Assembly: GCA_903900025.1 (NCBI GenBank)
Contig: CAIULN010000079.1
Coordinates: 1-64,000, forward strand
Direction of reading: 5' to 3'
DNA: 64,000 nt
From: an uncultured Methanomicrobiales archaeon
Lineage (GTDB): Archaea > Halobacteriota > Methanomicrobia > Methanomicrobiales > Methanospirillaceae
The notes below the pieces were generated by a model, which was given only the letters and a program-made list of their open reading frames with translations, was not told where the DNA came from and did not search any database. Made by a program: the position numbers and the translations under genes. This document shows positions 1,138-6,240 of this stretch, in pieces; the first letter of the stretch is position 1, and every line of letters starts with the position of its first letter.

Positions 1138-2433
1138 TCAGAACTCCACCACCATCACCGCTTCCTCCTCTTTCCTGAGTTCACCCTTGAGGTGCTCTGC
1201 GTCAAACTCGTACGTCTCCCACGGGTTATAGGCTTCGTAGAGCTCGGACTTGTCGAGCACATCCACAAATTCTTTTAAAAATATCCTCGGAATGACATCG
1301 ACCCGCCCGCCAAACCGGCTGGTGATCTTCTTGATCATCGCCCGGATGAACCGGTGGGAGATCCGCTCCCGGTCCACCTCGGAGAAAGCCTGCGAGTAGA
1401 TGTCAACCACCTTCAGCGCGACCTGCTCGAGCTTTGTTGTGTCAAATTTTGAGAGCATGATCTGGGGCTGCCGGGGGTTTTTATAGGAGTCGGTCTGGAC
1501 AACGCTGATCCGGTCATAGAGGGGGGGCACGGACCGGATCCCCCGGGAACCGTCAAACAGTGCCGGGGTACCGGTGAACAGGAGGTAACACCGCGGCATG
1601 TCCCCCCGGTCAAGGGCGTCAATGATGTGGACGAGAGTCTGGTAGCCTTTGTCCCGCTGGTTTTTTGGAAGCGCCTGTGTCGTCTCCATCTCATCGATGG
1701 CGATCGCAAGCCCGCTGTACCCGGCACCCTGCATGACCACGACGAGCCCCCGGAGAAAGAGCAGGGCGACGGTATCATCGATATCCCCGCGGATCCCGGC
1801 TTTTTGTTTGAAGTCCCTGCCGATATTGGGTTCCGCTGAGATCCACCCGAGCGCTGCCTGCGCGAGCTGGAAATCGCCGGTGTTGTTGGCACGGTAATAG
1901 GTCCTCAGTGCAGCGGCAAGTGCGGAGTTCATTTCCGAGATACCGGTCAGCGCTGATTCGATCTCACGCTCGGTCGCTGCTTCGAGTGCAGCGTCCTCGA
2001 TTCCGGTCCCGCCCACCGATATGATCCGTTCCTCAATGGCAAAGAGCCAGTTGTCGACAACTGTCTTTATTGCGTGTTCCTCTTCCTGCGTGCGAAGGTT
2101 TGAACAGACCTGCTGGTAGATCGCCCTGAGTTTGTAGAGCGGGGAGGCCGGGGAGATCACCACGTGCGACGTGATAAAACCCTTGTTGCGCGCCATCTCG
2201 AGAGCACGGGCGACCAGAAACGTCTTCCCGCTGCCATAGTCTCCCCGGATGAATTTTGTATCACCGCCACCCTGTGACACATAATCGAGCTGCTTTCCAA
2301 TCACACCTTCTTCGACATCAAGACCGACCGCGATCCGTTCGAGCCCGGACCCCGGTACCGTACCGCGGCGCAGTGCGTTGATGATATTGATGCTTTCCAG
2401 TTTTGTCCTGTCCATCCGTTCAGGTTCCGACAT
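1138..2433 (-). CDS. DUF2791 (BrxC/BrxD-type) P-loop ATPase
   Basis: An ATPase of about 431 residues resembling the DUF2791 family that includes BREX proteins BrxC/BrxD. A Walker A (GDYGSGKT, residues 64-71) follows an N-terminal segment typical of the family (INALRRGTVPGSGLERIAVG). A Walker B-like AIDEMETT lies near residue 240, followed by a sensor-like LLFTGTP. The start is taken at 2433 or 2439; GGGAGG sits 9 or 3 nt upstream, so 2433 is better. The start lies inside the end of the TPR gene, so translation is probably coupled. No PglZ, methylase or protease of a BREX locus is nearby. The family probably loads onto or remodels DNA or protein complexes; the actual target here is unknown. 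Confidence 0.8.
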   Translation of the reverse strand: MSEPERMDRTKLESINIINALRRGTVPGSGLERIAVGLDVEEGVIGKQLDYVSQGGGDTKFIRGDYGSGKTFLVARALEMARNKGFITSHVVISPASPLYKLRAIYQQVCSNLRTQEEEHAIKTVVDNWLFAIEERIISVGGTGIEDAALEAATEREIESALTGISEMNSALAAALRTYYRANNTGDFQLAQAALGWISAEPNIGRDFKQKAGIRGDIDDTVALLFLRGLVVVMQGAGYSGLAIAIDEMETTQALPKNQRDKGYQTLVHIIDALDRGDMPRCYLLFTGTPALFDGSRGIRSVPPLYDRISVVQTDSYKNPRQPQIMLSKFDTTKLEQVALKVVDIYSQAFSEVDRERISHRFIRAMIKKITSRFGGRVDVIPRIFLKEFVDVLDKSELYEAYNPWETYEFDAEHLKGELRKEEEAVMVVEF

Positions 2434-4234
2434 ACTCATAAACCTCCCCGTCATCGCCAAACCCTTTCTTTTCAATGATGGTTATATGTTTTGCAGCTGC
2501 CTTCTGGTTGAGCCGGTTGATGATCCCGGCCACCCTGCGGGTATTGAGTGCTTTTCGCAGCTCACTCTCCGTTGCCTTTTTATGTGAACGGAGGAATTCA
2601 ACAATCTTCTGCTCCTGCTCGTCAAGGTCAAGGTCCTGTCGGATCTGGTGCAGTGTTGACACCTGGACCGCCCTCCACTTTGCCGGTGTGAGGTCCATGA
2701 TGGGGCGGTCTGCGATCGAACGGTCCTTGCAGGACCTGATCAGGTTCAGGAAGTCCTCCAGCTGTAGTGCCTTTGTGTGTACCGGCAGTACATCAATGCC
2801 CCGAAGGCAGAAACGCTTGCAGCCTGCATAGTCCGATTCCTCAAGTGCCTGGCGTCCCGTGATGAGCAGGGCAATCGCAAGCAGCTCCAGCCCCTTGGTG
2901 TTCAGGCTCGACCTGCGTTCTTCAAGCCGGCGGATCACGTGCTCCATCAGCCGGCGCATGCGGTGCATCGGGTGGTGCCGGTCAACAATAACCGCCACGA
3001 CGCGGTGGAGATCAACGGAGCGCTTCACATTGTTGAGGATGTACAGCATCACCTTCTCGCATTCACGGTCCTCGTTATGGGCGGCTAGGAACCTGGCATA
3101 CTCGAGCCCCCCGGACAAAAAGTCTGCGCGGTATGCACGGTAGAACCAGGCCCGTGCTTCAGCGGAATTCCCCAGGCCCTCGTACAAGCGTGCGGTCTCC
3201 AGCAGGCTGGCAATGTTGACATCCTTTGACACGACTGAAAGGAACCGGGCGAGCGCTTCTGATGCCGGGAAACTCAACTGGAGGAATTTCCGGTACTTCC
3301 CGATGATCAGGCCCAGCGTGTCCAGGTCGTTTTTTGAGCGGATCTCATCGGTGATCAGGCGCTCGTACTCGGCAGCCGCCTTTTTTGTATCGCTGAGGAC
3401 GGCATATACATCGCAGGTCATGAGACGGTGGATGGGAAGACTGGTCCGTACACTCAACTCATTACAGAGTTCGAGCGCTTTTTTGTGGTTGCCTGATGAT
3501 GTGAGCAGCAGGATGTAATCGGCAAGGATGTCCCCGTCACCCTGAGCGCCTGCCTGTGATTCATAGGCATCAAGGGCGGCCGTCAGATCGTACTGTGCCA
3601 GTGCGGCAAGGTATTTTCTGAGGATTGCGGGGTCATTTGACGTGTGGTATGCATCCAGTGCTGCCGTTGCAGCAGCCCGGTACTGCCGTGAACTGAGCAG
3701 GGCGTCGAGATACTCGTGGCCCTGTGTACGGTCACCGAGCAGCGTACGGTGGGTCTCCAGTGCCGCCTGCGGTTCGCCAATCTCAATGAGTGCCCGCACG
3801 AGGTTCCTTGTATCATTCTCGTTCCTTGCAAGCATGACGAGCTGTTTGAGGACCGGCAGTGCACCATGGTAATCATGGTGCGAGAGCAGGTATTCTGCAT
3901 AACTCCGCAGGGCGTCCTGGTTTGTCGGGTCGAGGTGGACGGCCGTTGCATACTCGGCGATCGCCCCTTCATCACCCTGTGCTTCGAGCACTTTTGCGAG
4001 ATAGCTGTGGACGTATGATGAGTCCGGCATCTTCTGGGCAAGGTCACGGAAATATACCTCGGCATCATCGAGTTTTCCTGTATAGAAGAGGTTCGTGGCG
4101 GCAAGGACCTCCAGCGGCTGGTCTTTGACGGACCCGAGCACCAGCATACAGAGGTTCAGGGATTCCTGGTACCTCCCGTCTTCAAAAAGCCGGAACGCCT
4201 CTTTCTTCTGTTCTTCGAGCGTGGCAGGGATCAT
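2420..4234 (-). CDS. TPR-repeat protein with C-terminal winged helix
   Basis: 604 residues. Roughly residues 10-480 are tandem helical pairs of TPR type (for example FEDGRYQESLNLC, FYTGKLDDAEVYF, LSSRQYRAAATAAL). The last 70 residues change character: LDEQEQKIVEFLRSHKK, ATESELRKALNTRR, then a beta-wing ending VYEYVGT, which reads as a winged-helix DNA-binding domain. There is no signal peptide or membrane segment. The stop overlaps the start of the DUF2791 ATPase and the gene begins 3 nt after the glycosyltransferase stop on this strand, so all three are probably one transcript. Inference: a scaffold coupling DNA binding to the neighbouring ATPase. Confidence 0.8.
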   Translation of the reverse strand: MIPATLEEQKKEAFRLFEDGRYQESLNLCMLVLGSVKDQPLEVLAATNLFYTGKLDDAEVYFRDLAQKMPDSSYVHSYLAKVLEAQGDEGAIAEYATAVHLDPTNQDALRSYAEYLLSHHDYHGALPVLKQLVMLARNENDTRNLVRALIEIGEPQAALETHRTLLGDRTQGHEYLDALLSSRQYRAAATAALDAYHTSNDPAILRKYLAALAQYDLTAALDAYESQAGAQGDGDILADYILLLTSSGNHKKALELCNELSVRTSLPIHRLMTCDVYAVLSDTKKAAAEYERLITDEIRSKNDLDTLGLIIGKYRKFLQLSFPASEALARFLSVVSKDVNIASLLETARLYEGLGNSAEARAWFYRAYRADFLSGGLEYARFLAAHNEDRECEKVMLYILNNVKRSVDLHRVVAVIVDRHHPMHRMRRLMEHVIRRLEERRSSLNTKGLELLAIALLITGRQALEESDYAGCKRFCLRGIDVLPVHTKALQLEDFLNLIRSCKDRSIADRPIMDLTPAKWRAVQVSTLHQIRQDLDLDEQEQKIVEFLRSHKKATESELRKALNTRRVAGIINRLNQKAAAKHITIIEKKGFGDDGEVYEYVGT

Positions 4235-4237
4235 AAT

Positions 4238-4939
4238 TTACCCGAACCGGACCTGCAGAAGCCCGGCTAGCATCCTGATCATGTCCCGCCGCTCTACCCG
4301 GGAGTCCCCCGTGTTCTGCCATTCGATGGGAAATTCCCCCACTGAATAACCCCCTTGTTTCAACCGCCAGAGCAGTTCGACATCAAACTCAAATCCGGTC
4401 GATACCATATGGGACAGGACGGCATCGACGGCACTCTTCCTGAACACCTTGGCACCGCACTGGGTATCATGGTAGCGCAGCCCGAATAACAGCCGGATGA
4501 TCAGGTTAAATGCTCTGCTCTCGAACCGCCGCAGCATGTCCTGACTCACCCTGAGTACGGCGCCCGGGACCCAGCGCGACCCGATTGCACCGTCATACAA
4601 GGACAAGTGAGAAAACAGATTCATCATCTGATGGATACTGGTCGACCCGTCAGCGTCCAGGTACCCGACCCATGAGCCCCTTGCTGCTTTCATTCCCTCG
4701 ATCACCCCTCCTCCTTTCCCTAACCGGTGCGCAAATTTCAGGCACCGGATGTCCAGACCGGGACGGGAGGCGGCGATCTGCCCGACAACGTCAGCTGTGC
4801 GGTCGTTCCCGTCACACACGACAATCAGTTCTCCTCCGAATTCCTCGATCCGGTCGAACAGCTGAGAAATCCGCTTCTCTTCGTTGTACGCCGGGATCAC
4901 AAGGCTGTACCGGTTCGGGGAGAGTTCATTCATGGTCAT
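4238..4939 (-). CDS. GT2-family glycosyltransferase (Alg5/DPM-like)
   Basis: About 233 residues. The GT-A fold is clear: SLVIPAYNEEKRI at the N-terminus, an LIVVCDGNDRTADV nucleotide-binding strand, GKGGGVIEGMKAA, and the metal-binding YLDADGST. QCGAKVFR and a WRLKQGGYSVGEFPIEW block match dolichyl-phosphate glucose/mannose synthases. No transmembrane segment is present, so it probably acts at the cytoplasmic face, charging a polyprenyl phosphate for N-glycosylation or surface glycan synthesis. The ATG at 4939 is preferred because GGTGAG lies 8 nt upstream; the frame also has a GTG at 4951 overlapping the previous stop. Confidence 0.85.
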   Translation of the reverse strand: MTMNELSPNRYSLVIPAYNEEKRISQLFDRIEEFGGELIVVCDGNDRTADVVGQIAASRPGLDIRCLKFAHRLGKGGGVIEGMKAARGSWVGYLDADGSTSIHQMMNLFSHLSLYDGAIGSRWVPGAVLRVSQDMLRRFESRAFNLIIRLLFGLRYHDTQCGAKVFRKSAVDAVLSHMVSTGFEFDVELLWRLKQGGYSVGEFPIEWQNTGDSRVERRDMIRMLAGLLQVRFG

Positions 4940-4947
4940 CGGGAGTC

Positions 4948-5463
4948 TCACCGTTTCAGTGCTTCAATGATGGCAGAACCGAATGCACGTGCGGCAGCGG
5001 GACCATTCGCGGTGATGATGTTGCCGCTGACGACAACAGGCATATCAGAAATTGCCGAACCTCCCGCTTTCATCTCATGGACTGATTCAGGTGTCTTGAA
5101 GGCGGTGGATGGTAAACCCCTGAGAATGCCCGCACGGGCAAGAACCACCGGGGACAGACAGATCGCTGCAACGATCTTATGGGTATCATGAAACGCTTGT
5201 ACCAGCCTGATAAGATCCCCGTTTCCCCAGAGATGGGCGGGTGAGCCCGCTCCCCCGATGACAACAATACCGGCATAATCGCCGGCACTGGCCCGGTCAA
5301 ATGTCAGTGTTGCCTGCGCCCGCCCGCCCAGCATACCGGTGCAGGTGCCGGTTTTTGTTGATGCAATATCAAATCCGATTCCCGCCCTGGCAAACACCGC
5401 ACGAGGTTCATCCAGTTCTTCGTCCCTGTAGCGTTCCGGTGCAATAGCGACGAGGAGTTTCAT
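4948..5463 (-). CDS. DJ-1/PfpI-family protein
   Basis: About 171 residues from the ATG at 5463 (MKLLVAIAPERYRDEEL); the frame extends further upstream but that part lacks family similarity. The DJ-1/PfpI fold shows as GIGFDIAST, IVVIGGAGSPAHLWG, and the nucleophile elbow AAICLSPVVLARAG, where Cys takes the position of the catalytic cysteine of the family. PfpI members include intracellular proteases, deglycases and chaperones; the specific activity cannot be told from sequence. The stop overlaps the glycosyltransferase start region. Confidence 0.85.
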   Translation of the reverse strand: MKLLVAIAPERYRDEELDEPRAVFARAGIGFDIASTKTGTCTGMLGGRAQATLTFDRASAGDYAGIVVIGGAGSPAHLWGNGDLIRLVQAFHDTHKIVAAICLSPVVLARAGILRGLPSTAFKTPESVHEMKAGGSAISDMPVVVSGNIITANGPAAARAFGSAIIEALKR

Positions 5464-5495
5464 ACTGTACCTGTGGTCTGACAACAAGAATAACA

Positions 5496-5726
5496 TTACT
5501 GGTGCTTGCCAAGGTGCCGTCCAAGGGCGGTACCGGTACGGTATTTTTCTGCAATCCCAAGGGCCGTTGCACGCAGTGCATCATGATCCCTGAGGCAGAT
5601 CTCCGGTGGCGGGGATTTGCGGAGAATTGCCGATGTGTTCTCGGTCACCTGGATCAGTTCGGTTGCGATCAGGGCGTCGAGCCAGATCAGATCGGCAAGC
5701 ATCTGCTTGATCTCATCGTTCTGCAT
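5496..5726 (-). CDS. small hypothetical protein
   Basis: 76 residues from the ATG at 5726, preceded by GGGAG about 12 nt upstream. The frame is open further upstream, but that portion is low-complexity and overlaps the divergent thioesterase region. The predicted protein is mainly helical (EIKQMLADLIWLDALIATEL), with an HDALRATALGIAEKY helix near the end. I do not recognise the family. It is the likely first gene of the minus-strand group that includes the DJ-1 and glycosyltransferase genes. Confidence 0.5.
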   Translation of the reverse strand: MQNDEIKQMLADLIWLDALIATELIQVTENTSAILRKSPPPEICLRDHDALRATALGIAEKYRTGTALGRHLGKHQ

Positions 5727-5808
5727 GGTCGTACATTCTCCCGGGTGCGTATTAAATGGTACAACACGGATATGGCAACCTTCATCGTTTTTGACCCCCT
5801 GATCACTG

Positions 5809-6240
5809 ATGAGGATGATGTCATACCTTGAAAGGATCAGGAACCAGGGGAGGGAAGCAAACCCGTTCTTCTGCCTGATGGGGATTGATGTGGTGAGCGT
5901 TGAAGAGGGAAACGCGGTACTGCGTATGGCGGTGCGGCCTGATATGCTCAACGGGGTTGGGTGGCTTCAGGGGGGGATATTCACGGCACTTGCCGATGAG
6001 GCAATGGCTCTGGCCCTCCATCCGATGCTGTCCCCCCACGAAGGGATCGCAACCATCTCGGAATCGACCAGTTTTATCAAAGGTGTGAAGGACGGGGTGC
6101 TCATCGCACAAGGGCGCGTGATCAAGAAAGGGCATCGGGTCGTGTTTGCGGAAGGCGATGTGACACTGGACCAGAAGGAAAAGGAGATTCTGGCGCGGAC
6201 TTGTGCGGCGTTTGCAGTAACAGTGAGGGATTCAGGGTAG
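5809..6240 (+). CDS. PaaI-type hotdog-fold thioesterase
   Basis: 143 residues or slightly fewer (ATG at 5809, 5815 or 5818; no decisive ribosome site). The hotdog fold shows as NPFFCLMGIDVVSVEEG, then the catalytic-type segment NGVGWLQGGIFTALADEAMA, and SESTSFIKGVKDG plus AQGRVIKKGHRVVFAEGDV in the central sheet. The family hydrolyses acyl-CoA thioesters, typically phenylacetyl- or short-chain acyl-CoA. The conserved G-G-x-x-x-x-x-A-D helix is present, so the protein is probably active. It is transcribed alone, divergently from the 5726 gene, and ends in front of a T-rich tract. Confidence 0.85.
   Translation: MRMMSYLERIRNQGREANPFFCLMGIDVVSVEEGNAVLRMAVRPDMLNGVGWLQGGIFTALADEAMALALHPMLSPHEGIATISESTSFIKGVKDGVLIAQGRVIKKGHRVVFAEGDVTLDQKEKEILARTCAAFAVTVRDSG

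Follow-up and report, generated by a model that had tools for sequence, protein, structure and literature searches.

The window, the whole 64,000-nucleotide stretch of DNA analyzed here, comes from an uncultured Methanomicrobiales archaeon and carries near its start two overlapping genes, followed upstream by two further genes on the same strand:

1138..2433, minus strand: BrxD-type AAA+ ATPase, 431 residues (Pfam PF10923, formerly DUF2791; NCBIfam; PADLOC)
2420..2433, minus strand: overlap of TPR stop and ATPase start, 14 nt with the start at 2433 or 20 nt with the start at 2439
2420..4234, minus strand: TPR protein, 604 residues, with a predicted C-terminal winged helix at residues about 527-601 (Pfam, structure model)
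4238..4951, minus strand: GT2 glycosyltransferase, the usual upstream neighbor of the ATPase-TPR pair (Pfam)
4948..5496, minus strand: DJ-1/PfpI-family protein, a frequent neighbor of the pair (Pfam)

The original prediction had placed the ATPase start inside the last TPR codons, and both minus-strand reading frames indeed lie there. The longest reading frame of the ATPase spans 1138-2475 (445 residues) and opens with a TTG; judged from the sequence, the likely start is the ATG at 2433, with an in-frame ATG at 2439 as the alternative. By eye, a purine-rich GGGGAGG lies directly 5' of the start. The protein matches Pfam PF10923 (BrxC_BrxD) with E = 5.5e-130, exceeds the cut-off of the NCBIfam equivalog NF033438 (BREX_BrxD; 405.2 bits against a cut-off of 350), and in PADLOC matches BrxD with E = 1.4e-122 and 408 bits, compared with 162 bits for SngB, such that all three resources call it BrxD. 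It carries the Walker A motif RGDYGSGKT, the Walker B motif AIDE, a TGTP motif and a conserved arginine in YDR; in an alignment of 44 orthologues, the GKT of Walker A, the DE of Walker B and the conserved arginine are invariant. A profile search found a single PF10923 gene in the window's own genome. The ATPase has no match among PDB sequences, and its structure model is poor (pLDDT 65), with weak Foldseek matches to ORC and BrxC (E >= 0.03).

The TPR protein was predicted to be 604 residues long and to end in a winged helix, and this description is borne out by a match to Pfam TPR_19 (E = 1.7e-11) and by a structure model with a mean pLDDT of 89. Residues 6-505 are modeled as all-helical and TPR-like, and residues 527-601 as a winged helix with the order helix-helix-strand-helix-helix-strand-strand. 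No Pfam HTH family scores above its cut-off at this C-terminal end, and a Pfam scan shows no TerB domain. Based on the model, we propose that this TPR-wHTH protein may serve as a DNA adaptor or scaffold. Foldseek returned generic superhelix matches only (Ctr9, Naa15 and Ski3; TM about 0.2-0.4), and given their generic nature we keep the analogy to Ski2-Ski3 as a lead only. In most relatives the junction between the two genes is equally compact, with the genes overlapping or a few bases apart. The pairing is not a chance arrangement, since full-length orthologues of both genes occur in three families and the Walker A and B residues are invariant.

We next surveyed the pair among its relatives, which include Methanoregula and other Methanomicrobiales. 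In 40 of 41 loci the ATPase and TPR-wHTH genes stand together as a conserved unit; in the remaining locus (L113, in genome G089) the TPR gene was found by homology, the gap being due to a greedy gene caller. Within the window's family, an ATPase match and a TPR match each occur in 57 of 59 good genomes, and the pair proper in 56 once an accessory match in G036 and a weak match in G075 are discounted. For the order as a whole we used 129 genomes of Methanomicrobiales with a completeness of 90% or more, from six sampled families that carry the arbitrary labels f1-f6. The pair is present throughout f1, f3 and f5 except in two f1 genomes, G073 and G075; f2, f4 and f6 have no close orthologues. This core kind of ATPase is single copy and 50-90% identical among relatives. 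A universally conserved core pair with a known role thus describes the data in part: nearly every genome from three of the six families has the pair, but the other three families lack it and no role is known for it.

The earlier reading also held that no helicase gene is present. That holds for the neighborhood of the pair but not for the genome, where we identified one on another contig:

G000:C74:21350-23515: BrxHI/SngC-type SF2 helicase (PADLOC, Pfam)

Against PADLOC this helicase scores 558 bits with BrxHI over residues 2-693, compared with 403 bits for SngC, and Pfam recognizes a DEAD helicase core with an Lhr-like winged helix (WH_Lhr). Searching with a Shango helicase, we found a helicase of ~720 residues at a separate site in module-bearing genomes of the family; its catalytic motifs are invariant or nearly so in an alignment of orthologues. 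In relatives it is unlinked to the pair or distant from it, for example by 46 kb in G077 and 16 kb in G126. Across the 129 genomes, full-length orthologues of the helicase (>= 340 bits) occur exactly in the 80 that carry the pair (51 in f1, 19 in f3 and 10 in f5). All three genes are therefore found in 80 genomes and none of the three in 49, namely those of f2, f4 and f6 together with G073 and G075. In these 49 the helicase search gives only Lhr-like proteins of ~900 residues, Shango-type helicases or weaker matches, at about 230 bits or less. In the ATPase tree as well as in the helicase tree, f3, f5 and genus g13 each come out as a group, and the module is vertically inherited across three families.

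The clearest case of joint absence is G073, a complete genome with two empty sites about 46 kb apart. At the pair site, 24 bp separate the glycosyltransferase gene from hisD with synteny intact, and at the helicase site 33 bp separate a thioredoxin gene from the next gene. A genome of the same genus, G077, shares this synteny and has the helicase at the site that is empty in G073. Gene orders in G075 are as in G073. Three genomes (G036, G008 and G107) have the helicase but lack the pair. These exceptions are likely to be assembly gaps, because hisD, the pair's neighbor in the family, is also missing in G036 and G008, and in G107 a contig end truncates it. The main weakness of reading the three genes as a module is that their co-loss rests on few independent events: f2, f4 and f6 may form one clade, and G073 and G075 may reflect one event. 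Gain of the genes, instead of loss, may be an alternative history.

Rates of evolution also link the three genes. As a measure of covariation we took partial rank correlations between pairwise distances, controlling for CTP synthase, and obtained 0.88 for ATPase and helicase, 0.91 for TPR protein and helicase, and 0.84 for ATPase and TPR protein; other genes gave 0.05-0.63. With hisD as the reference, ATPase and helicase correlate at 0.81, and two genes of the CTP synthase cluster reach 0.80-0.81 with the ATPase. Because these two genes match the value of the helicase, we regard the covariation as supportive and not decisive. Evolution is faster in the TPR protein and the helicase than in the ATPase and the neighboring enzymes. 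Overall, an unlinked BrxHI-type helicase is present or missing along with the pair and covaries with it in rate, and the idea of a stand-alone, two-component system is not supported. The three genes instead appear to be one machine, whose parts are inherited together as a fixed set in roughly half the order and are also lost together.

Among known systems, type-2 BREX (Pgl) offers the closest counterparts of two of these proteins. Its BrxD and BrxHI have been called a "tightly linked dyad", with BrxD classed as an ORC-Cdc6 AAA+ ATPase and proposed to load or activate BrxHI, although the role of BrxD/BrxHI is described as uncharacterized (PMC12839542). The methanogen ATPase passes the BrxD cut-off and is about 39% identical to bacterial BrxD, its nearest match on plasmids, and the helicase matches the PADLOC BrxHI profile as given above. 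Matches to the ATPase on plasmids are all below 60% identity, and many of the best are annotated BrxD. In three bacterial plasmid loci that we read, the gene after BrxD encodes a helicase that matches the archaeal core-helicase profile (E < 1e-130), and two of the loci have PglZ upstream. In bacterial type-2 BREX the genes of BrxD and BrxHI are neighbors next to PglZ, whereas in the methanogens the two are unlinked, BrxD is instead paired with a TPR-wHTH protein, and the genes are fixed core genes. Type-2 BREX itself "did not include archaeal lineages" (PMC12839542). As had been predicted, no further BREX gene lies beside the pair, which is not a complete BREX system; PglZ (PF08665) has no match in the window's own genome and matches in only 6 of 59 genomes of the family. 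The module therefore has two components in common with type-2 BREX without being a BREX system. Full-score PglZ genes do occur in the two good f1 genomes without the module (G073:C1:2150738-2151259 and G075:C165:3864-4385). Replacement of the module by PglZ would rest on one or two cases, and G006 has both.

The module also resembles Shango, which comprises the TerB-like SngA, the ATPase SngB and the helicase SngC: each combines a non-enzymatic partner, a PF10923 ATPase and a helicase of the clade that unites SngC and BrxHI with other antiphage helicases (PMC12278908). However, the methanogen ATPase shares 25-30% identity with SngB paralogues and fits the BrxD profile better than that of SngB, a TPR-wHTH protein stands in place of TerB, and relatives carry true Shango loci as separate systems. 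A second, patchily distributed kind of PF10923 gene is 25-30% identical to the core kind and located beside an SngC/BrxHI-like helicase in nearly all inspected loci; the two such loci scanned whole have the order SngA(TerB)-SngB-SngC and are thus Shango. Complete-looking archaeal Shango loci were seen at L132:6636-12631 and L152:7376-13066, one of them in the window's family and the other in a different family of the phylum. A TPR match close to a Shango locus of G084 (L139:577-2493) was judged generic.

Other loci place BrxD directly before a BrxHI-family helicase outside BREX. In two archaeal loci (L153 and L154:349-4517) this pair has a conserved 258-residue partner without a Pfam family, and in L154 it lies upstream of type I restriction-like genes. 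On a Deinococcus psychrotolerans plasmid (L215:3981-9257), an LRV/HEAT-repeat protein and a 451-residue protein of no assigned kind precede BrxD and a BrxHI-family helicase, with no PglZ nearby; a second BrxD-helicase pair follows the first. This layout possibly parallels a "repeat scaffold + BrxD + BrxHI" arrangement, but its partners are not homologous to the TPR-wHTH protein and its genes are adjacent and plasmid-borne. Finally, the ATPase resembles ORC/Cdc6 helicase loaders through its BrxD class (PMC12839542) and its structural matches to ORC, a likeness that rests on a weak model (E >= 0.03) and involves a different helicase superfamily. We found no published description of the ATPase-TPR pair or of the three-gene module, in line with the suggestion that the system may be undescribed; the literature library searched also gave no paper on DUF2791 in archaea.

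Taken together, the overlapping gene layout, the shared phyletic profile, the clean syntenic sites at which all three genes are missing, the covarying rates, the intact catalytic motifs and vertical inheritance point to the three genes as a module. We consider it fairly probable that they form a BrxD-BrxHI helicase loader that is split but fixed in the chromosome: the pair supplies two of its three parts, with the TPR-wHTH protein as DNA adaptor, and the unlinked helicase is the third. In the predicted physical complex, the TPR-wHTH protein would bind DNA via its winged helix and scaffold its partners. The co-translated, ORC/Cdc6-like BrxD ATPase would act as an ATP-driven oligomer that loads or activates the helicase on the bound DNA, and the helicase would then unwind or remodel DNA. 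As to purpose, constitutive genome maintenance is close to an even call and somewhat more likely than fixed innate immunity, because the genes have housekeeping neighbors, occur in single copy and descend vertically. The full picture, in which a BREX-type BrxD-BrxHI engine was domesticated in methanogens and serves genome maintenance as a three-protein complex with dispersed, vertically inherited genes, its TPR-wHTH adaptor paired with the ATPase, is one that we put forward tentatively. In a minimal split version fixed in many species, the ATPase-helicase engine stands apart from the other BREX components; helicase loading thus becomes testable with three proteins, for which natural strains without all three provide a ready comparison. 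If true, it would place defense-type machinery among core chromosomal genes, or the reverse.

The strongest competing account, possible though rather doubtful, is fixed innate immunity: a BREX/Shango-like machine against viruses or plasmids, whose helicase disrupts recognized foreign DNA, its effector perhaps being a housekeeping nuclease. The BrxD/SngB and BrxHI/SngC relatives that we read do reside in defense or defense-like loci (PMC12839542, PMC12278908, PMC10250203), and both the faster evolution of the TPR protein and helicase and the full-score PglZ in the two family genomes lacking the module would fit such a role. Yet the module shows no defense island, effector or patchy distribution, being single-copy and vertical across three families; separate Shango systems coexist with it in several genomes, G006 has PglZ and the module together, and a search of viral contigs and phages found no relative.

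It is improbable that the pair works independently of the helicase, as a split regulator of transcription or DNA binding that resembles STAND or ORC proteins, with the helicase profile a coincidence of lineage. Only the pair is physically linked, the ATPase gene overlaps the gene of the wHTH protein, and the small number of independent losses would suit this account. It is difficult to reconcile, however, with the ATPase and helicase scoring as BrxD and BrxHI, partners whose genes lie side by side in bacteria, with two separate clean empty sites in one genome, or with the rate covariation of pair and helicase.

The flanking genes, which Pfam confirms to be the expected glycosyltransferase (GT2) and DJ-1-like protein (DJ-1/PfpI), are probably bystanders: the former is kept in a genome without the pair, and the rates of the latter do not covary with it. 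Joint action of the pair with both, for example in surface glycan control, is very unlikely, as their proximity in 21 (glycosyltransferase) and 20 (DJ-1) of 41 loci is outweighed by an unrelated PAS kinase upstream of the pair in f5, by retention of the glycosyltransferase where the pair is missing, and by low partial correlations (0.37-0.48 and 0.05-0.30, respectively). In the f5 loci (e.g. L106:2718-8288), the glycosyltransferase is replaced by a multi-PAS histidine kinase of 1430-1860 residues upstream of the TPR gene. An OB-HD (YhaM-like) gene downstream of the pair in f3 and f5 is not specific to it, since genomes of f4 and f6 that lack the pair also have this gene. In the window, positions 5496-5951, between the DJ-1 gene and a thioesterase gene, encode a small conserved protein with a core of about 100 residues and no Pfam family.
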